Positions 1-23,624 of a stretch of 64,000 bases of DNA are shown here, piece after piece. Below the pieces are notes generated by a model, which did not search any database, was not told the origin of the DNA, and saw nothing but the letters and a program-made list of their open reading frames with translations. A program made the position numbers and the translations under genes. Numbering within the stretch: the stretch's first letter is position 1; every line of letters starts with the position of its first letter. The DNA is from Moraxella caprae DSM 19149 (GTDB taxonomy: Bacteria > Pseudomonadota > Gammaproteobacteria > Pseudomonadales > Moraxellaceae). The DNA lies in assembly GCF_000426885.1 (NCBI RefSeq), contig NZ_AUGF01000004.1, positions 1 through 64,000 on the forward strand. The letters are read 5' to 3'.

Positions 1-53
1 AATTGTCGTCTTCATAACCGTAAATTACCACTGTTTGGTTAAGTTGTCTTTTT

Positions 54-90
54 AGTTTTTGTTACAGCATACTTTTTGAACCACTGCCCT
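54..90 (+). repeat. Right end of a family A palindromic repeat (partial)
   Basis: The segment contains GCATACTTTTTGAACCA, identical to the right end of the two full family A elements at 16046-16179 and 22353-22485. The upstream 60 bases do not resemble the rest of the element, so this is a remnant or diverged copy. Confidence 0.6.
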
Positions 91-2723: not shown

Positions 2724-3326
2724 TTATTGGATGTTAAGATGATACCTATCATCATCAATCCTCACCACCAGTTTATCGCCACGTTCTATCTTGCCCACAC
2801 CTTTTGGTGAGCCTGTCATGATGATGTCGCCTGCTTGTATACCGTAGAGATTATCCAAGTAATCCACCAGATAGTCAAATGAATACATCATCTTTTTGGT
2901 GCTGTCGTCTTGACGAATCTCGCCATTGACGGCTAAGGATAAATGATAATGGCGTTCGCTAAATGGCTTAAATCCCCCAAGCCAACACGCTCCCTTAAAA
3001 CCTTTGGCTTTAAGCCACGGCAAGCCCTTAGCTTTGCACACGTCTTGCACGTCTCTGGCAGTCAAGTCAAGCCCTACCGTGTAGGCGATGATTTGCTTGT
3101 TCTTGCCGATGAGTAGCACAAGCTCGGTCTCGTGATGGACGTTCTCCGAAAAGTCGGGCAAGGTGAGCGTATCGCCTGTTGTGATACTGCTGTTGGGTTT
3201 TAAAAAAACCAACGGTTCGGCAGGGATTTCGTTGTTAAGCTCGTGGATATGCTCCACATAGCTACGCCCGACGCAGTAGATGGTGTTGATGGGGTGGGCT
3301 TGCTTGTTGATAAAGACAGTAGTCAT
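2724..3326 (-). CDS. Fumarylacetoacetate hydrolase (FAH) family protein
   Basis: A 200-residue single-domain FAH fold protein of the YcgM/fumarylpyruvate hydrolase or oxaloacetate tautomerase type. Recognisable parts are IYCVGRSYVEHIHEL near residue 20, FLKPNSSI, HHETELVLLIGK (the metal-binding E-x-E type region near residue 70), GLDLTARDVQ and the C-terminal GDIIMTGSPKGVG. Such enzymes act on small beta-diketo acids with a divalent metal. The substrate is unknown, and no aromatic degradation genes lie nearby. The ATG at 3326 is the only plausible start, with a weak ribosome binding site. It lies 36 bases after the end of the alpha/beta hydrolase gene and on the same strand. Confidence 0.85.
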   Translation of the reverse strand: MTTVFINKQAHPINTIYCVGRSYVEHIHELNNEIPAEPLVFLKPNSSITTGDTLTLPDFSENVHHETELVLLIGKNKQIIAYTVGLDLTARDVQDVCKAKGLPWLKAKGFKGACWLGGFKPFSERHYHLSLAVNGEIRQDDSTKKMMYSFDYLVDYLDNLYGIQAGDIIMTGSPKGVGKIERGDKLVVRIDDDRYHLNIQ

Positions 3327-3362
3327 GGCAAAATTTCAAAAATTGGGGCAAAGGCACAGGGT

Positions 3363-4367
3363 TTATGCTTGTGATAATAAATGTCCCACTATCAAACTTG
3401 CCAAATACGGCTGATAATACACCGGCAGGTCATGTGCCAAGCCGTCTACCGCTACGAATCGGCTGTTTGGGATGATTTTGGCAATGTGTTTACCGTGGCT
3501 TTGGTGCAGTAGCCCGTCTTTGTTGCCGTGAATGACGAGTGTGGGGGTGGTCACTTGACGAGTATACTGGAAAATCGAGCCTGTGGCAAGGATGGCGTTC
3601 ATCTGCTGTGCCATGCCAAGCGGATGATGACAGCGATGATAGCGGATTGAGGCGATGTGGCGAGTGCCTTTGACGTCTAGATGACCGGGGGAGCCGACCG
3701 CTGTCATGAACCATACTGCATGACGGAGCATGTCCCGTTCGCTGTTGCTTTGGGCTTTTTTAAAAAAGGTAGAGAACTCTTTGGGTTTGGGTGGCACCAA
3801 AAAGGGGTGGTTGGTGCTACTAAACAGCAGGGCAAGCCTGTCGACATAATGGGGGTATTTGGCACAGACGATTTGGGCAATCATACCGCCCATGCTCGCC
3901 CCGACCAGATGTGTTTTGCCCAAATTCATCGCCCCAATCAGCCCTGCGACATCGTCCGCCATGTCGGGTAGGGTGTAGGCGACTTTTTCACGGGCGTTGG
4001 ATAAGCCAATTTGGTTTTTGGCAATCATTTTTAGGATGTTGGTGTGTGGCAGTTTGGTTAGGTGCTTGATTTTGGTGGAAAGACCCGTATCACGGTTGTC
4101 AAATCTGATGACAAAAAACCCTGCGTCCATAAACTTTTTTAAAAAAGTATCCGACCAAAACAGCATTTGCGAGCCAAAGCCTGTGATGAACAGTAAAGGT
4201 GGATGGTCAGGGTTGCCCCCTGCTTCGACACACAGCGTAATACCACGCCCAACATCAACCATGCTTTGATAAAAATGGGGCGATAGGTCGGATGCTCGCC
4301 AGTCTTGGTTAAATCTATCCCAGCTTGGCGGTGGCGTGTGGGCGATGGGCGGTGGCAAATAGGCCAT
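3363..4367 (-). CDS. Alpha/beta hydrolase, EstB-like
   Basis: A 334-residue alpha/beta hydrolase. Seen in order: an oxyanion region LLFITGFGSQ, RFDNRDTGLS, the nucleophile elbow GASMGGM (near residue 160), the acid strand LVIHGNKDGL and a late histidine in GLAHDLPV. The gene begins 6 bases after the rubredoxin stop, so the two are almost certainly co-translated. In Acinetobacter a hydrolase called EstB follows rubA-rubB. Here the rubredoxin reductase gene is absent from between them. The substrate is unknown; esters of medium size are typical for relatives. Confidence 0.85.
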   Translation of the reverse strand: MAYLPPPIAHTPPPSWDRFNQDWRASDLSPHFYQSMVDVGRGITLCVEAGGNPDHPPLLFITGFGSQMLFWSDTFLKKFMDAGFFVIRFDNRDTGLSTKIKHLTKLPHTNILKMIAKNQIGLSNAREKVAYTLPDMADDVAGLIGAMNLGKTHLVGASMGGMIAQIVCAKYPHYVDRLALLFSSTNHPFLVPPKPKEFSTFFKKAQSNSERDMLRHAVWFMTAVGSPGHLDVKGTRHIASIRYHRCHHPLGMAQQMNAILATGSIFQYTRQVTTPTLVIHGNKDGLLHQSHGKHIAKIIPNSRFVAVDGLAHDLPVYYQPYLASLIVGHLLSQA

Positions 4368-14509: not shown

Positions 14510-15904
14510 TTACAAACAAAACGGATTTAATTCGTCATTATTATCATCATTGGGTTTGATATTTACTTTTTCAAACTCCTCCAATACAGGCAAAAGACTG
14601 TTTGCCTCATGTGGTGGTAATACATCAAAGGCATTAAAATGATATTTGCCGAGTAGCTCTTTTAATTTGTCTTTGGCAAGGCGAACCGTGAGTATCTCAT
14701 GTCCTGTATCGTCAAATTCGCTATGGGTGATGACCCCAAGCTCATGCAAGGCGTTTTTTAATTGTCCTGCGTGATAGGGTGGGGTTAAGTGAAAATCCGA
14801 CAAGCCCCCCACCAAAAGTTCCTGCACCGCTTGGGTTAGTTCATCGATACCCAAATTTGCATGAGCCGACACATAAACACGGTGGGGTGTGGTAGCGTCC
14901 TTATAATGAATGGTGGGCTTTTCTTTGGTTTTGTCGATTTTGTTGTGGACAAGCAAGACAGGGGCGGTTGCACCAATTTCATGAAGGACGCTATTAACTG
15001 CGTCAATCTGCTCGTGCATGTTGGGACTGCTACTGTCAATAATATGCAATAACAAATCTGCTTCCAAAGTCTCTTCCAGTGTGGCGTGAAAGCTCTCCAC
15101 CAGTTCGTGTGGCAGATTTTGCACAAAGCCGACCGTGTCCGCCAGCACCACTTTGCCCACGCCTTGCCAGTCAATTTGACGCAAAGTGGGATCAAGCGTG
15201 GCAAATAGCTGGTCGGCACTATAAATGTTCTCGTCCGTCAAGGCGTTGAACAGCGTGGATTTGCCTGCGTTGGTGTAGCCGACCAGCGAGACGGTGGGCG
15301 TGGACGATTTGGTGCGTTTGGCTCGTCCGATTTGGCGGGTTTGTTTGACTTTGGCGAGCTTGGCTTTGAGCTGATTTACCCGCACTTGGAGTAGCCGTCT
15401 ATCGGTTTCAAGCTGAGTTTCGCCCGGCCCCCGAAGACCGATACCGCCTTTTTGTTGCCCAAGATGGGCATAGCCACGCACCAGCCTTGACGATAAATGG
15501 GTCAGCTGTGCCAATTCCACTTGCAATTTTCCTTCATAAGTCCTTGCTCGTTTGGCAAAAATGTCCAAAATTAGCCCCATACGGTCAATGACCTTACATT
15601 GCAAGATTTTTTCCAAATTGCGTTCTTGACTGGGCGTAAGTGTATGATTAAAAAGAACAATTTCCGCTCCCGTCTCAGCGACTTGCTTGGCGATTTCGTC
15701 CGCCTTGCCCATCCCTACAAAATATTTGGCAGAAGGTTTGTTCATTGTGCCTGTGATTTCGCCCAAAATCTGGGCATCGGCAGAAATGGCAAGTAGGCGA
15801 AATTCGTCCAAATCGTTTTGATTGTCGGCAAAATCCAAACTTTTAAAGGTGCAATGCACCAAAATCGCCCGCTCCCCGCTTTTGTGTTGTTCAAAATAGT
15901 GCAA
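14510..15904 (-). CDS. hflX: GTPase HflX
   Basis: A 464-residue ribosome-splitting GTPase. The N-terminal HflX domain runs to about residue 190 and includes GGIGLRGPGETQLETDRR. The G domain follows with G1 GYTNAGKSTLFNAL, G3 DTVGF and G4 HNKID. The reading frame starts with TTG at 15904, preceded by AAGGA six bases upstream. There is no ATG before about residue 57, so the TTG start is well supported. It is not linked to hfq and miaA here, although hfq-hflX is a common neighbourhood in gammaproteobacteria. Confidence 0.95.
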   Translation of the reverse strand: MHYFEQHKSGERAILVHCTFKSLDFADNQNDLDEFRLLAISADAQILGEITGTMNKPSAKYFVGMGKADEIAKQVAETGAEIVLFNHTLTPSQERNLEKILQCKVIDRMGLILDIFAKRARTYEGKLQVELAQLTHLSSRLVRGYAHLGQQKGGIGLRGPGETQLETDRRLLQVRVNQLKAKLAKVKQTRQIGRAKRTKSSTPTVSLVGYTNAGKSTLFNALTDENIYSADQLFATLDPTLRQIDWQGVGKVVLADTVGFVQNLPHELVESFHATLEETLEADLLLHIIDSSSPNMHEQIDAVNSVLHEIGATAPVLLVHNKIDKTKEKPTIHYKDATTPHRVYVSAHANLGIDELTQAVQELLVGGLSDFHLTPPYHAGQLKNALHELGVITHSEFDDTGHEILTVRLAKDKLKELLGKYHFNAFDVLPPHEANSLLPVLEEFEKVNIKPNDDNNDELNPFCL

Positions 15905-16045
15905 AGTTTTTCCTTAACAAGGATTTTAAAATAAAGTATAATGGCATAATTAAAAATTTTTTTCAAGGTTTATTGTGTAATAAAAATTATTTTTTAAAGT
16001 TAATTAGATTGTGGTTTTTTTAAATGAAAAAAATAATAATTTTTC

Positions 16046-16179
16046 GGCTTTGGTTCAAAAAGTATGCTACAAAGAAAACCGTTCGTGGCGTGGTTGTCGA
16101 GCCATAACGGTTTTCCTACCCGCAGGCAGGCTCAGGGCGAACGGAAAACCTAGTTTGGCATACTTTTTAGACTACTACC
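16046..16179 (-). repeat. Family A element A1 with alternative hairpins
   Basis: A 134-bp element nearly identical, in reverse orientation, to 22353-22485. Its ends are GGTTCAAAAAGTATGC and GCATACTTTTTAGACTA. Three arms can pair in two exclusive ways: GAAAACCGTT (16074-16083) with AACGGTTTTC (16106-16115), or GGTTTTCC (16109-16116) with GGAAAACC (16143-16150). It lies in the divergent hflX-folP spacer and has no coding capacity. Confidence 0.85.
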
Positions 16180-16294
16180 AATTTTTCATTTTACTACTTT
16201 TTAAAATTAAGTTTGGCAAGGCGTGTATCAAGAACTATTAAAAGTTAATAACTACAAATGGCAATTTAATTATTTTATTTTTTAATTTGGAGTG

Positions 16295-16428
16295 TAAGGT
16301 GCGTATCACACACCATTAAAAATTATCATTATAAGATTATACCTTAATGGTTTTTATTTTAAAAAATACTTTATTATCAAAAAATAACCGATAAGTTAAA
16401 TAAGGTGTTGTGTAATACGAACCTTATG
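16295..16428. repeat. Family D degenerate palindromes
   Basis: AAGGTGCGTATCACACACCA near 16296 and AAGGTGTTGTGTAATACGAACCTT near 16402 are degenerate forms of the GGTGCGTATTACGCACC repeat. Between them lies AT-rich DNA. The rest of the 15905-16527 spacer holds the family A element and nothing else that I recognise. Confidence 0.55.
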
Positions 16429-16527
16429 ATTTTAAAAATAAAAAACAATTTTAAAAAATACAATGTTTTTAATAAAATTATCTGCTATAATATTTTCAAA
16501 ATTTAAAACCTATTTGGACAAATTGAA

Positions 16528-17448
16528 ATGACCGACTTTAACGAAATCCAAAACCCATTATTCGCCCCTTTACCCAATTTTGCCTTATCCGCCAATGGCA
16601 AAATTTTAAATTTATCCAAACCCAGAATAATGGGAATTTTAAATGTAACGCCCGATTCTTTTTCGGACGGTGGGCAATTTACCGCCACCCACACCGCCCT
16701 TGCCCGAGTGGACGAGATGCTACAGCAAGGGGCAGACATTATTGACATTGGAGCGGAATCCACTCGCCCCAATGCCACGCCTGTTACAGACGAGTTGGAG
16801 CTGGCTCGCCTAACGCCCATTGTTACCGAAATCAAAAAAACCTACCCCAATCTTTGGCTATCCATTGACACGAGTAGTCCTGTCGTTATGGCACAAATGG
16901 CGGATTTGGGGGCGGACATTTGGAACGATGTGCGGGGCTTACAACGGGCAGGGGCGTGTGAGATGGCAAGCCGTTTGGCATTGCCTGTTGTCTTAATGCA
17001 CAGTCGGGGCGAGCCTCTCACAATGAACAAAATGGCGGTGTATGACGATGTCCTAGCCGAAGTGTCGGCGGAGCTTGGCGGCTTGGCGGATAAGGCGTTG
17101 CAAGCAGGCGTTCGGCGAGAAAATATCGTCCTTGATGTGGGTATGGGCTTTGCCAAAGAATATGGACATCATATTGATATTGTTAAGAATTTGAGCGAAT
17201 TTGGCAAACTAGGTTATCCGATGTTGTTTGGCGTGTCTCGTAAACGCTTTGTTGGCGAAATTCTAGCGGAGAGCGGTATTGAAATCCTAGCAAACACCAA
17301 TCCTGCCGAGCGAGATACCGCCAGCACCGCTCTTGCAATGCTTGCGGTGGCACAGGGGGCGGGCATTGTGCGGACGCATAATGTGGCACAGGCGGCACAA
17401 AGTTTGGCGGTGTGGTATTCGCTTTCGGATAAGGTTGATGATGATTAA
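16528..17448 (+). CDS. folP: Dihydropteroate synthase
   Basis: A 306-residue TIM-barrel enzyme joining p-aminobenzoate with dihydropterin pyrophosphate in folate synthesis, the target of sulfonamides. Visible signatures are GILNVTPDSFSDGG near residue 35, IDIGAESTRPNA near 75, LSIDTSSP near 110, WNDVRGL, VLMHSRGEP and VLDVGMGFAKE. The C-terminal FGVSRKRFVGE carries the SRK phosphate/substrate loop. About 25 extra N-terminal residues precede the barrel. It is monocistronic between a repeat-rich spacer and the rplU promoter. Confidence 0.97.
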   Translation: MTDFNEIQNPLFAPLPNFALSANGKILNLSKPRIMGILNVTPDSFSDGGQFTATHTALARVDEMLQQGADIIDIGAESTRPNATPVTDELELARLTPIVTEIKKTYPNLWLSIDTSSPVVMAQMADLGADIWNDVRGLQRAGACEMASRLALPVVLMHSRGEPLTMNKMAVYDDVLAEVSAELGGLADKALQAGVRRENIVLDVGMGFAKEYGHHIDIVKNLSEFGKLGYPMLFGVSRKRFVGEILAESGIEILANTNPAERDTASTALAMLAVAQGAGIVRTHNVAQAAQSLAVWYSLSDKVDDD

Positions 17449-17454
17449 AACCTC

Positions 17455-17483
17455 TTGCACCCCTCAAAAAAATAGCGTATAAT
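17455..17483 (+). promoter_or_regulatory. rplU-rpmA promoter
   Basis: TTGCAC (17455-17460) and TATAAT (17478-17483) are separated by exactly 17 bases, a strong sigma70-type promoter. It begins just after the folP stop and gives a leader of roughly 75 bases before rplU. Confidence 0.8.
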
Positions 17484-17515
17484 GGGGCGTTTTCATCCTA
17501 GTCTCGTCCGTTTTC

Positions 17516-17541
17516 AAGTGTTGGCAGGTCGCCAATCACGG
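17516..17541 (+). promoter_or_regulatory. Hairpin in the rplU leader
   Basis: GTGTTGGC, a 5-base loop AGGTC and GCCAATCAC form a stem with one bulged base in the untranslated leader of rplU. It could serve ribosomal-protein autoregulation or simply RNA stability. I do not match it to a known leader family. Confidence 0.45.
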
Positions 17542-17566
17542 CAGACAGGTTTCTTGGAGAGTACAG

Positions 17567-17878
17567 ATGTACGCAGTTATCAAAAGTGGCGGTAAGCAAC
17601 ACCGTGTCAGCATTGGCGAGACTTTGAAAGTTGAGCTTCTAAAAGCAGAAGTTGGTGCAACCTTGAATATTGAGGAAGTGCTAATGGTAGTAAATGGCTC
17701 TGATGTAAAAATCGGTCAGCCTGTAGTTGTTGGTGCCAGCGTGGTTGCAGAAGTGGTTTCTCACGGTCGTGGTAAAAAAGTGCGTATCGTTAAGCATAAA
17801 CGTCGCAAGCATTACCACAAAGAGCAAGGTCATCGCCAATGGTACACCGAGCTTAAAATCAACGCAATCAATGGTTAA
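17567..17878 (+). CDS. rplU: 50S ribosomal protein L21
   Basis: A 103-residue L21: [15 protein letters not shown] at the start, [20 protein letters not shown] in the middle and the basic [19 protein letters not shown]-type end (here [20 protein letters not shown]). GGAG precedes the ATG. It is followed 40 bases later by rpmA in the universal order. Confidence 0.98.
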
Positions 17879-17918
17879 TTCATATACTTTATAAAAAGTA
17901 TTCACAGGAGATATTCTC

Positions 17919-18176
17919 ATGGCAACTAAAAAAGCTGGTGGTTCCACCAAAAATGGTCGCGATTCTAACCCAAAAATGCTCGGTGTAAAAGTATTTGGCG
18001 GTCAAGATGTCATCGCAGGTAACATCATCGTGCGTCAGCGTGGCACCGAGTTTCACGCAGGTGAAGGCGTAGGCATGGGTCGTGACCACACGCTATTTGC
18101 CTTGACTGATGGCGTGGTAAAATTTGAAAAGAAAGGCGAGTTCGGTCGCCGTTATGTGTCTGTTGTTGGCGAATAA
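17919..18176 (+). CDS. rpmA: 50S ribosomal protein L27
   Basis: An 85-residue L27 starting [16 protein letters not shown], the N-terminal tail that reaches the peptidyl-transferase centre. [20 protein letters not shown] and [14 protein letters not shown] follow. ACAGGAGA lies upstream of the ATG. It is the second gene of the rplU-rpmA operon. Confidence 0.98.
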
Positions 18177-18199
18177 TTAGCCAAAGACCTCACACAAAG

Positions 18200-18228
18200 T
18201 CCCACGAGTATACACTAGTGGGATTTTT
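18200..18228 (+). terminator. Terminator after rpmA
   Basis: TCCCAC and GTGGGA close a 12-base loop and are followed by TTTTTG, about 24 bases after the rpmA stop. Confidence 0.75.
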
Positions 18229-18359
18229 GTTTGGGTGATTAAAATTTATTTAACATAATACTTTTTGATGTTTGCGTGGTGTTTTGGATGGGGGGGTGGA
18301 ATTGACTATAAAGTCTGCGTAAGGTTGATTTTGCGGTACTTTTAAAATTTTTGACCGTA

Positions 18360-19115
18360 TTATTTTGACATGATGACCAACGTTTCCAACATCAAGGCGA
18401 AATTGTGTAAAAAATGCAAAAATATGGCAAAGGCAAGTGTTCCCCCTGCGGTTCTGGCAGAAACAAAAATAAAACTGCTGATAAAATAGAATATTACAGC
18501 GGTTGGGTCAAAGTTGTAGTGTGTAAAAGCAAAAACAGCACTGCTAAGAATTAAAGCAATGCGTTCGCTTTGAAAGGCATCTAAGGTTGCCCGCCATAAA
18601 AATCCACGAATCAAAATTTCTTCGCAAATGGGGGCGACAATCACGGTACTGATTAAGGTTGCCCAAAGTCCATAAGTTAAAATGTCTTCGCTTAACCTAA
18701 TATGAATAGCTCGGGTGTGATTCGCCCATTGAAATGAATGCAAGCTGATAAAAATAATCGTCCATAATAATAAAAAATTCCAATTTGGTTTGTTAAATCC
18801 CAAATATGAAGACAAACTTTCATAAGAATAATGATAAAGGCGATAATGGACAAGCCAAATCACAACAAAGGTAAGTAAACATAAACTGCTTTTAAATAAA
18901 ATCAAAAACCATAATTTCTCATTGTAAGCCAAAGGATAAATGACTTTAATAATTTCTTCATTAAAAAAATGAAAGATAAACGTTGAAAAAATGCCCAATG
19001 TGAGAGTTGCAATAGAAAAAATGAGAATTTCTATTTTTGAAAATAAGGGCTCTTCATATCCCCAGTTCTCATCAAAATTACCATCAAAATCATTGTCATG
19101 TGGTTCTAGGGGCAT
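18360..19115 (-). CDS. CPBP family intramembrane glutamic protease
   Basis: A 251-residue multi-pass membrane protein with six to eight hydrophobic segments. It carries the CPBP/Abi signatures EEILIRGFLWR (the EExxxR motif, near residue 165) and FTHYNFDPT (near 200), with a late HFLHN histidine. Relatives are membrane proteases of the CaaX-type fold, often of unknown substrate and sometimes linked to bacteriocin or stress functions. AGGAG four bases before the ATG at 19115 fixes the start. The acidic N-terminus (about 25 residues) is cytoplasmic. It is third in a three-gene minus-strand group with two unknown genes. Confidence 0.85.
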   Translation of the reverse strand: MPLEPHDNDFDGNFDENWGYEEPLFSKIEILIFSIATLTLGIFSTFIFHFFNEEIIKVIYPLAYNEKLWFLILFKSSLCLLTFVVIWLVHYRLYHYSYESLSSYLGFNKPNWNFLLLWTIIFISLHSFQWANHTRAIHIRLSEDILTYGLWATLISTVIVAPICEEILIRGFLWRATLDAFQSERIALILSSAVFAFTHYNFDPTAVIFYFISSFIFVSARTAGGTLAFAIFLHFLHNFALMLETLVIMSK

Positions 19116-19123
19116 GGAGTCTC

Positions 19124-19528
19124 CTACTGATGAGCATGAGAAATAGGTGTGGTGGGGTATACATAGTAATGATTGCGATATTTCATATAACGCACAGGAA
19201 TGCAAGCGGTAGCATAAAATTCATATAACGCTTCGTGTGAAGTGCTAAAGGAGCGATCAAATTTAGCAGAACGTTTGATGAGTTCATTGATGAAAGAATT
19301 TGTGATGTTATTTGTGCGATTGTCAATTGCCATAAGGTGATTCTCTTCAATGTGTGTGTTATTAAACTTGATAACTGCTTGAAATTCTTTTGAGATAAGT
19401 GAGGGCATGGTGGTTAGCTCCATTTGATGGGGTTGCTCATCTTTATCCCAGAAATATGTGTGTGAAAAACAAACGTGCCTGTAGTGAATACGTTTGTTGC
19501 CTATGTCATTAATGAGTGTTTGAGTCAT
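19124..19528 (-). CDS. Hypothetical protein, 134 aa
   Basis: Not recognised. A soluble protein with many His, Tyr and Asn residues and no signal peptide. The segment EEFYATACIPVRYMKYRNHYYVYP-like near the end (residues about 105-128) is aromatic-rich. It starts inside the end of the upstream small membrane gene (4-base ATGA overlap) and ends 8 bases before the CPBP protease start, so the three genes form one transcription unit and may act together. Confidence 0.6.
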   Translation of the reverse strand: MTQTLINDIGNKRIHYRHVCFSHTYFWDKDEQPHQMELTTMPSLISKEFQAVIKFNNTHIEENHLMAIDNRTNNITNSFINELIKRSAKFDRSFSTSHEALYEFYATACIPVRYMKYRNHYYVYPTTPISHAHQ

Positions 19529-19656
19529 GCTTTTAAAAATGAGCTTTGGTGCAGGTCATAATAGCGAAAAATCGGCTGAAAATATAATCTGGTTGCTAAG
19601 ATTACTGCCATACAGCCAATACCAAGCAATATCAAGCCAATATTGTGTAAATTCAT
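19525..19656 (-). CDS. Small single-pass membrane protein, 43 aa
   Basis: Starting at the ATG at 19656, the protein is essentially one hydrophobic helix (IGLILLGIGCMAVILATRLYF) with a short polar tail. The frame is open further upstream to 19716, but that part lacks membrane character. It overlaps the next gene by 4 bases. The function is unknown; such short helices often act as partners of membrane proteases. Confidence 0.5.
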   Translation of the reverse strand: MNLHNIGLILLGIGCMAVILATRLYFQPIFRYYDLHQSSFLKA

Positions 19657-19803
19657 AAATATACGCCCAGTGTGATGAATGTATTGTAATCGTTCGGATA
19701 TAATTTTTTCAACCAACAGATATTTTTTATAAACTGTGCTTTTATGATAAAGATTTTATAAAAAAAACGTGATATAATTACCAGTTAGATTAAAATATTT
19801 TGA

Positions 19804-21024
<1,221 letters not shown>

Positions 21025-21049
21025 TGATGAGCTGATATAAGGAAATAGC

Positions 21050-22165
21050 ATGGATAATTCGCCAAAGCGTATCGTGGTAAAAATCGGCTCATCGCTACTG
21101 ACCAACAACGGTCGGGGGCTTGACCGTACCGCCATTTATGAATGGGCAAGACAAATCGCCACCTTGCACGCTCGTGGGATTGAGGTGGTACTGGTATCTA
21201 GTGGGGCGGTGGCGGAAGGCGTGGTTCGTATGAACTTGCCCGAACGCCCCAAAAAATTGCCTGCCTTGCAAGCCTGTGCGTCCATTGGACAAATGGGGCT
21301 GATTGAGACATGGTGGCAAGCGTTAATCCAAAAAGGCGTACAGTCATCACAGATTCTCTTGACCCATGATGACCTAGTCCACCGCTCCCGTTATCTTAAC
21401 ATTAGCCAGACCATGAGCCAGCTTTTGGCGTGGCGTGTCGTGCCTGTCATCAATGAAAATGATACGGTCAGCTATGGCGAGATAAAATTTGGCGATAATG
21501 ACACGCTTGGGGCGATGAGTGCGACCATGATAGGCGCGGATTTGTACATTATCCTAACCGACCAAGACGGTGTATTTACCGACAATCCACGCACCAATCC
21601 CAACGCCAAGCTTATCACAAGCGAGCGAGCGATGGCGGATTATCTGTTTGATGTGGCAGGGGACGGTGGTAAATGGGGGTCTGGCGGTATGCTAACCAAA
21701 ATCCGTGCGGGGCGATTGACCGCCATGGCAAACTGCCCGACCATCATCGCCAATGGTAAGGTGGAAAATGTCATCGTGCGACTGGCGGATGGCGAGGCTA
21801 TCGGCACACGACTCACGACCGACCATGCCGACCGCCTGATTGCCAAAAAACAATGGCTTGCCACGCACCTACGTATGGCGGGCACGCTCATCATCGATGA
21901 TGGCGCAGTCAAGGCGATTACCGAACAGTACAAATCACTACTGCCTGTGGGCGTGCTAGACGTGCAAGGTGATTTTGACATGGGCGATGTGGTTGAGATT
22001 GTGAACGCCCAAAAAGTGCGATTGGCGGTGGGTCAAGTTGGTTTTGATAGCCATCAAGCCAAACAAATCATCCAAAAACACACCGATGAAGTCCTACAAA
22101 TCCTAAACCTAAGCGACAACGACAAAGCCATTATGGTGCACCGTGATGACATGGCGGTTTTGTGA
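21050..22165 (+). CDS. proB: Glutamate 5-kinase
   Basis: A 371-residue enzyme for the first step of proline synthesis, phosphorylating glutamate. The amino-acid kinase domain has KIGSSLLTNNGRGLD at the start, LVSSGAVAEG, NENDTVSYGEIKFGDND and the Gly-rich GGMLTKIRAG near residue 215. A C-terminal PUA domain follows from about residue 280. AAGGAAA precedes the ATG. It is probably cotranscribed with obgE. The proA gene is not nearby. Confidence 0.97.
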   Translation: MDNSPKRIVVKIGSSLLTNNGRGLDRTAIYEWARQIATLHARGIEVVLVSSGAVAEGVVRMNLPERPKKLPALQACASIGQMGLIETWWQALIQKGVQSSQILLTHDDLVHRSRYLNISQTMSQLLAWRVVPVINENDTVSYGEIKFGDNDTLGAMSATMIGADLYIILTDQDGVFTDNPRTNPNAKLITSERAMADYLFDVAGDGGKWGSGGMLTKIRAGRLTAMANCPTIIANGKVENVIVRLADGEAIGTRLTTDHADRLIAKKQWLATHLRMAGTLIIDDGAVKAITEQYKSLLPVGVLDVQGDFDMGDVVEIVNAQKVRLAVGQVGFDSHQAKQIIQKHTDEVLQILNLSDNDKAIMVHRDDMAVL

Positions 22166-22221
22166 TAGATATTTAAAACTTTGATATTGTTTAATAAAGA
22201 TGCATTTTACAATTTGGGTGT

Positions 22222-22289
22222 GTAGGGACGAATTGCAATTTGCCCAAAAATCAACACGTTATTAAAGGGCAAGTGTCATTTGCCCTTAC
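22222..22289. repeat. Family C-like element with paired inverted repeats
   Basis: The ends GTAGGGACGAATTGC and GCCCTTAC resemble the family C ends. Inside lie AATTGCAATTTGCCC and GGGCAAGTGTCATTTGCCC. The element lies between proB and the family A element upstream of hemE. The whole 22166-22517 spacer contains these two repeats and no gene. Confidence 0.55.
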
Positions 22290-22352
22290 AAATTTACCCA
22301 AAGGTATAGTCAATTAACAATGAAAAAATTTTAAAAATTGATTTAACTAAAA

Positions 22353-22485
22353 GATAGTAGTCCAAAAAGTATGCTGAACTAGGTTTTCCGTTCGCCCTGA
22401 GCCTGCCTGCGGGTCGGAAAACCGTTAGGTTTCCCAAGCTCACCACGAAAGGTTTTCTTTGTAGCATACTTTTTGAACCAGAGCC
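22353..22485 (+). repeat. Family A element A2 directly upstream of hemE
   Basis: A 133-bp copy closely matching A1 in the opposite orientation: TAGTAGTCCAAAAAGTATGC at the left, GCATACTTTTTGAACCAGAG at the right. Internal arms GGTTTTCCG and CGGAAAACC make a hairpin around GTTCGCCCTGAGCCTGCC, and a third arm GGTTTTC lies near 22451. It ends about 32 bases before the hemE start, so it probably lies in or near the hemE promoter or leader. Confidence 0.85.
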
Positions 22486-22517
22486 AACTAAAAATTAACT
22501 TAACCAGTGGAATGACA

Positions 22518-23624
22518 ATGACCCAGCAATTTGCCCTCCTAAAAAATGACCGCCTACTGCGTGCTTTGCGTTTTGAGCCCATTGATGTCACCCCTGTATG
22601 GATGATGAGGCAGGCAGGACGGTATCTACCAGAATACAAAGAAACCCGTGCCAAAGCAGGTGATTTTTTAAGCCTGTGTAAAGACACCGACATGGCGACC
22701 GAAGTTACGCTCCAACCTTTACGCCGTTTTGAGCTGGATGCGGCGATTTTGTTCAGTGATATTTTGACAATCCCTGATGCGTTTGGGCTTGGACTTTATT
22801 TTGAAGAAGGCGAAGGCCCTAAATTTAAATACACCGTACGCACACCGACCGACCTTGAACGTTTGCCAAAAATTGATGTAAACAGTCAGCTTGACTATGT
22901 CATGAAAGCGGTAACCAATATCCGTAAAGAGCTAAACGGACAAGTGCCACTGTTTGGATTTAGTGGCAGTCCTTGGACTTTGGCAACTTATATGGTGGAA
23001 GGCGGTTCTAGCCGTGAGTTTCGCCATACCAAAGAGATGATGTACGCCCGACCACAGTTTTTGCACGCCTTACTTGCCAAAATCTCGGACGCTGTCGTGG
23101 ATTATCTGGACGCTCAAATCATCGCAGGGGCTCAGATTGTGCAGATTTTTGACAGTTGGGGTGGGGCGTTGGGTCATCGTCAATTTGTGGAATTTAGCCA
23201 TAATTATAATCGTGAAATCATCGCCCGCTTAAAAGCCAAGCACCCCGATGTGCCTGTGGTCATGTTTACCAAAGGGGGCGGGCTGTGGCTTGACATACAG
23301 GCGGACAGCGAGGCGGATTGTTTGGGTCTTGACTGGACGACACCGCTTGATAGGGCAAGACGGGAGCTGAACAATGCTCAAAAAATCCTAACCATCAAGC
23401 ACAAAAAGCTACAACGTCAAAAAGCCATTCAAGGTAACCTTGATCCTGCCACGCTTTACGGCTCGCCTGCCGACATCAAAAAGGCGGTACATGATATGCT
23501 ATCAGATGTCTATGTGAATGACAAAACGGGCTATGTGGCAAATTTTGGGCATGGCATTACCCAGTGGGTCAAGCCCGAACACGCTAAGGTGTTTGTGGAT
23601 AGCGTGCATGAGTTTAAACTGTAA
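22518..23624 (+). CDS. hemE: Uroporphyrinogen decarboxylase
   Basis: A 368-residue haem-pathway enzyme removing four carboxyls from uroporphyrinogen III. Signatures are the N-terminal [15 protein letters not shown] (near residue 26), [13 protein letters not shown] with the catalytic Asp, the [17 protein letters not shown] loop and [15 protein letters not shown] six bases before the ATG at 22518 favours that start over an ATG six bases upstream. The family A repeat forms its upstream boundary, and a terminator follows. Confidence 0.97.

Follow-up and report, generated by a model that had tools for sequence, protein, structure and literature searches.

Family A repeats upstream of hemE and folP in Moraxella caprae as MITEs with IS1-type ends and a palindromic core common to unrelated transposon ends

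Results

Family A elements in the window

The 133-bp repeat upstream of hemE in Moraxella caprae DSM 19149 is almost certainly one copy of a MITE, here called Family A, that has the ends of an IS1-family insertion sequence and a core shared with other mini-transposons; this is the best explanation of the observations as a whole. The DNA analyzed (the window, 64,000 nucleotides) corresponds to C3:1-64000 of a draft genome of 2.60 Mb in 103 contigs. The closest named relatives of its hemE gene are from Moraxella, with that of M. lacunata (96%) first. According to NCBIfam gene names, copy A2 is flanked by proB and hemE, and copy A1 by hflX (minus strand) and folP (plus strand). The features of the window are as follows.

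1-88, minus strand: terminus of a complete IS1-family insertion sequence, inside which the contig starts
16046-16179, minus strand: Family A copy A1, 134 bp, with the 8-bp duplication GAAAAATT, between hflX (minus) and folP (plus)
22183-22324, plus strand: second insertion ahead of hemE, a GTAG-tagged doublet enclosed by F-like ends (limits approximate, placed by eye)
22345-22352, plus strand: left 8-bp target duplication of A2, AACTAAAA
22353-22485, plus strand: Family A copy A2, a 133-bp MITE with IS1-type terminal inverted repeats
22353-22376, plus strand: left terminal repeat of A2, matching the ends of the parent insertion sequence
22377-22463, plus strand: interior of A2, a convergent palindrome doublet common to end types B, C, D, and F
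22382-22389, plus strand: arm 1 of A2, GGTTTTCC
22416-22423, plus strand: arm 2 of A2, GGAAAACC, which pairs with arm 1 or arm 3
22451-22457, plus strand: arm 3 of A2, GGTTTTC
22460-22485, plus strand: right terminal repeat of A2, matching the ends of the parent insertion sequence
22486-22493, plus strand: right 8-bp target duplication of A2, AACTAAAA

The initial annotation had described A1 and A2 as nearly identical copies in opposite orientation. Their coordinates and orientation hold, and the two copies are 89% alike rather than nearly identical. A1, which had been placed upstream of folP, sits between the divergent hflX and folP genes, 349 bases from the folP ORF and 142 bases from the hflX ORF, and the distance from A2 to hemE, given before as about 32 bases, is 26 bases to one of two possible ATG start codons and 32 bases to the other.

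Copy number, target duplications, and placement

The genome-wide count and flank analysis that the initial annotation had proposed placed at least 40 Family A copies beside many different genes. A2 with short flanks gave at least 41 matches in its own genome, 40 of them Family A elements or parts of such elements, and this count is a lower bound from 40 scored candidates out of 120 found at first look; the one other match, at C19:6489, is a type B element (see below). The end motif AGCATACTTTTTGAACC occurs 58 times in this genome with at most two mismatches, compared with 0 for the reversed control. An end-to-end pattern script, which left out chimeras and copies missing an end, extracted from the fetched loci 39 different elements, 131-136 bp long, 37 of them with both flanks. 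An exact 8-bp duplication abuts the ends of 29 of the 37 flanked copies and is off by one base in one more, the exact form being absent in 8, and no abutting duplication longer than 8 bp was found among the 37. The mismatched-flank control gave exact 8-bp agreement in 8 of 1332 pairs and agreement with no more than one mismatch in 52 of 1332.

With genes crudely approximated by ORFs of at least 90 aa, 37 of the 39 copies lie in intergenic DNA, in surroundings of which ORFs take up 77%. The strands of the neighboring genes relative to the element are +/+ in 15 cases, -/- in 10, convergent in 7, and divergent in 4, with a neighbor missing in 3. This placement fits a transposon in AT-rich spacers, found in all gene arrangements with no clear orientation preference. 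The copies thus lie without regard to particular genes, the random placement that had been named at the outset as speaking, together with a lack of effect on expression, against a regulatory role. A2 had no match in the plasmid and phage collections searched.

Empty sites at hemE and folP in relatives

The hemE leader of M. lacunata is uninterrupted and contains a single AACTAAGA where the window has AACTAAAA on either side of A2. A2 is absent at hemE in 13 of the 15 relatives in which both flanks lie on one contig, and the other two are partly covered. In 11 of the 15, 7-90 bases separate the proB flank from the hemE flank, and in the other four the gap is 222, 330, 1723, and 1739 bases; the genus search behind these gaps scored 24 candidates per genome, and the loci were then rechecked. 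No Family A match was found at hemE in the 12 relatives with both sides in one fetched locus, including those with the 222- and 330-base gaps (G018 and G021). A further relative (G005), with 56 bases between the flanks, was counted as empty from the size of its gap, and in G007 and G009 about 1.5 of the 1.7 kb between the flanks was read, with no Family A match in that part. At the A1 site, no Family A match lies between the flanks in any of the four relatives with both on one contig (G007, G016, G018, and G021); only G007 offers a tight empty site, with approximately 100 bases compared with 680.

The second insertion upstream of hemE (22183-22324) is absent in M. lacunata, G001, and G002. Its two GTAG-tagged doublet units lie at 22222-22245 and 22267-22289, and similar stretches occur in at least 14 places in G002 and at least 8 in G001. 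As this doublet lies inside F-like ends, such ends occur with two different cores.

An IS1-family parent with Family A ends

Inspection of 20 fetched transposase loci for the Family A ends gave an intact parent, a 793-bp IS1-family element present at four loci of G002 (L091, L099, L105, and L109). The 232-aa ORF at L091 scores 181.5 bits to the IS1 transposase model NF033558 (cutoff 100), and the 8-bp duplication is exact in three of the four parents and agrees in 7 of 8 bases in the fourth. The likeness of A2 to the parent is confined to 20-29 bp at each end. In the M. caprae draft assembly the IS1-type copies seen are degraded or partial only; one of them (L052, positions 2910-3703, contig C15) has Family A ends and a broken transposase that scores 94 bits to PF03400 and 107.7 bits to NF033558 (cutoff 100). 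No duplication was found around L052 or around L095, another IS1-type element with similar ends. PF03400 was matched in 9 of 22 genus genomes and had no match in G003, G005, and G017, though A-like matches are present there.

Positions 1-88 of the window match bases 1-88 of the 793-bp parent with 100% identity. The "remnant" of Family A previously assigned to positions 54-90 is therefore the terminus of a complete insertion sequence cut by the contig edge. Taken together, Family A has the features of a MITE: terminal inverted repeats, a duplication of fixed length, short elements in many copies without a transposase gene, and an autonomous parent. The ends, duplications, parent insertion sequence, empty sites, and copy number were all observed directly.

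A palindromic core between different transposon ends

Inside Family A, two GTTCGNNNTGAGCNTGTCGAA palindromes converge, and many copies in the M. caprae genome have this pair in decayed form. The exact pattern occurs 56 times in this genome, 72 times in G001, and 146 times in G002, compared with 0 for the reversed control, and is present in 16 of the 57 genomes searched. Among 398 sampled genomes of the phylum it was found in 18, more than 50 times in three of these, M. caprae included, so the likeness of the inner GTTCGCCCTGAGCCTGCC to a widespread palindrome, proposed earlier, is confirmed. The 146 matches in G002 divide into 73 forward and 73 reverse, which suggests up to approximately 73 doublets.

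The same core is found between several other ends. Type B, with AGACTTCCTGCAAAACT ends, gave 40 matches, 38 of them near full length, and a 3-bp duplication is present in all 20 scored copies, compared with 128 of 380 in the mismatched control, a high value that reflects the AT bias of the target. A type B end is also found next to an ORF that encodes an HTH_Tnp_4 domain, and the B parent is known from partial ends only; from the domain and the duplication we read type B as probably IS5-like. Fourteen type B copies in the M. caprae genome, including the query (e.g. L071, L072, and L077), are 100% identical over 126 bp, pointing to a recent burst. Type F, found in G002 with GGTATTGTTAA ends, has an exact 8-bp duplication in 7 of 9 copies examined; the type F MITE is 133 bp long with the doublet core (L123-L130). 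Type C ends, TACAGCTAACAAAATTGAA and TACACTCTACAAAATGAA, are paired at several sites, and type D has paired ends in two copies in G001; no fixed-length duplication was recognized in nine C-type and two D-type copies.

Identity to L034, the A copy with the least decay, is 90-97% for B cores, 91% for F, 89% for C, and 83% for D, and A2 itself is 71-86% identical to cores of other types. Seven representative end strings compared pairwise gave no local match scoring above 7. Of the matches in several relatives to positions 25-110 of A2 alone, many are other end types with the same core rather than Family A. In G042, from another family of the order, the doublet lies in other surroundings and lacks the three-arm design; palindrome matches number 99 in this genome, many of them forming doublets within longer repeats flanked by AACTTCC/GGAAGTT (L131-L142).

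Probable exchange of ends and cores

The same interior between unrelated mini-transposon ends indicates that ends and cores have been exchanged. Chimeric elements point to how this may have occurred. L054 combines a left end of type A with a right end of type C, and L041 and L163 each have one B end and one A end; none of the three has a duplication, and they look like recombination products. L050, in which A ends surround a C end, has an 8-bp duplication and appears to have moved as an A element. The sequence abutting the L054 chimera (2380-2640) has a translation that, read by eye, resembles the start of an IS3-type OrfA. The exchange of ends and cores was most likely brought about by homologous recombination between copies, as the chimeras suggest.

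Alternatively, several insertion sequences could have landed repeatedly next to one and the same REP-like doublet, with later loss of their coding regions and no recombination between MITEs. REPs are described as insertion-sequence targets in the available part of one report (PMC1525189), and both arms and spacers differ between the C/D and A/B/F cores, as repeated landing would allow. However, A and B are homologous as far out as the terminal-repeat border (AACTAGG), and chimeric ends exist; these two observations fit recombination at least for A and B, and we regard repeated landing as rather unlikely.

The arms of the core were compared among end types. A pattern search gave 84 cores, of which one mirror image was dropped and the remaining 83 were grouped (44 A, 9 B, 7 C, 2 D, 7 from G042, and 14 others). 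A MAFFT alignment of 44 cores, thinned from 74 eligible, misplaced gaps in the C arms, and the arms were compared by script instead, with L139, a G042 core, left out of the C group. The mean longest pairing between arm 1 and arm 2 is 7.2 within A compared with 3.4 for A with C arm 2, 7.8 within C (arm 2 being deleted in two of the 7 cores) compared with 4.0 with A, and 8.0 within D compared with 3.8 with A; the G042 value is 3.1. Mean pairing between arm 2 and arm 3 within a type is 8.2 for A, 6.6 for C, 6.5 for D, and 2.7 for G042, and between A and C or D it is 3.2-4.4. The arms of C and D partly fit each other (5.3-7.0) because both share an A-rich design. The excess of own-type over cross-type pairing implies that, on at least one occasion, the arms changed in concert between the A/B/F design and that of C and D. 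This co-switching, which involves few events, may reflect the construction of the doublet rather than selection.

A possible REP/RAYT origin of the core

The interior could also be a REP family moved by its own RAYT, a tyrosine transposase, with the terminal repeats incidental. A convergent palindrome doublet is often the REP arrangement according to the part of the REP survey available to us (PMC3733652), and the M. caprae genome has a RAYT-like gene that scores 59 bits, under the NCBIfam cutoff of 80. Against this, the target duplications fit the terminal repeats, the RAYT-like gene L183 adjoins a different, GTAG-tagged doublet, and the palindrome, with up to three mismatches allowed, was found at none of the 11 loci read among 56 matches to PF01797 (all 7 of G000, G001, and G021, and 4 of the 49 of G042). 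A RAYT as mover of the core was rejected on this absence of the palindrome at the 11 loci read, and the explanation is improbable. L183 itself (1462-1959, contig C10) is a candidate mover of the GTAG-tagged doublet upstream of hemE.

Alternative hairpins

The middle arm can pair with the upstream or the downstream arm in both copies, as first noticed. The pairing of arm 2 in A2 spans 9 bases with arm 1 and 7 with arm 3; in A1 the corresponding lengths are 8 and 9. Forced folds of the core RNA (plus strand) are predicted to favor different hairpins in the two copies, with -23.4 kcal/mol for arms 1-2 and -18.4 kcal/mol for arms 2-3 in A2, compared with -22.6 and -28.8 kcal/mol in A1, and the alternation of pairing is kept with swapped letters in the C and D cores. 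Such behavior would be expected if the leaders of hemE and folP contained an attenuator or RNA switch in which two competing hairpins control transcription. However, the terminal repeats dominate the folds of the whole elements, for A1 and A2 alike (z-scores of -2.8 to -4.5). The cores of L034, B, C, and D are also predicted to favor a long-range foldback, in which their two units pair with each other, over every local hairpin that could be built on the plus strand (only one of the two could be forced for B), as in the C core, with -47.0 kcal/mol for the foldback and -30.4 and -29.1 kcal/mol for the local hairpins. Consensus scans, which require five T and a loop of 3-8 and which longer or weaker hairpins would escape, gave no terminator-like site at either locus, and no Rfam family was matched at the gathering threshold in window positions 15900-22600. 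Of the features expected of an attenuator or riboswitch, alternative hairpins are thus present, whereas an intrinsic terminator (0 sites) and a conserved association with hemE are not. With approximately 40 sites beside many different genes, the element missing from hemE in M. lacunata and most other relatives, and a transposon copy with duplications and empty sites at both loci, the regulatory or terminating cassette first proposed for hemE and folP is very hard to credit.

Discussion

Family A is a non-coding transposon of 131-136 bp with IS1-family ends of approximately 23 bp that generates 8-bp duplications, mostly in AT-rich intergenic DNA, and it would probably be moved in trans by an IS1-type transposase. 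Its hairpins derive from the interior, where two units of a widespread REP-like palindrome converge and share one arm, and if the element affects hemE or folP at all, it would do so as a by-product of insertion. The suspected control element of hemE and folP is accordingly struck off, the repeat being explained as a mobile insertion.

We tentatively suggest, as a possibility that we consider somewhat doubtful, that the doublet is an exchangeable passenger between unrelated transposon ends, in effect parasitic on parasites, whose three-arm foldback is kept by selection, for example because it quietens transcription through the insertions and renders them harmless. This suggestion covers the three types with duplications (IS1-like A, B with its unrelated transposase domain, and F) as well as end types C and D. 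If this sharing of the core is borne out, the internal part of a bacterial mini-transposon can move from one transposase system to an unrelated one, and the purpose of REP-like palindromes becomes testable, with one core that can be compared in several transposon backgrounds.

In the literature searched, which covered few subscription journals, there was no report of Family A or of a core common to unrelated MITE ends, and no paper was found with the letters of the palindrome. The IS1 family (NF033558, PF03400) shares with the parent its ends, 8-bp duplications, and 232-aa transposase, whereas Family A has no transposase gene. As far as its report is accessible, MITEAba12 (PMC6382973) is likewise a short MITE (111-114 bp) of Moraxellaceae with target duplications and resident insertion sequences that have the same ends; it differs in its ISAba12 ends and 9-bp duplications, compared with the IS1-type ends, 8-bp duplications, and REP-like internal doublet of Family A. 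TIMEs (PMC4133298), in the portion of the source at hand, are also mosaic non-autonomous elements but are derived from Tn3. QMITE2 of Coxiella burnetii (PMC10969869) is similarly a MITE, whose ends are 23-29 bp long, whose duplications are 7-9 bp, and which contains a REP-like element; sharing of a core between unrelated ends is not described in the available part of that paper. GTAG-15 of A. variabilis and CGTC-1 of H. neapolitanus are, in the same partial text of the REP survey (PMC3733652), palindromic REP dimers inside a longer inverted repeat, as in Family A; that text names no transposase for the outer repeats, whereas the Family A cores have transposon ends, and of more than one type. 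Family A alone is a new member of the MITEs, and what sets it apart as a variant is one palindromic core common to mini-transposons with unrelated ends.
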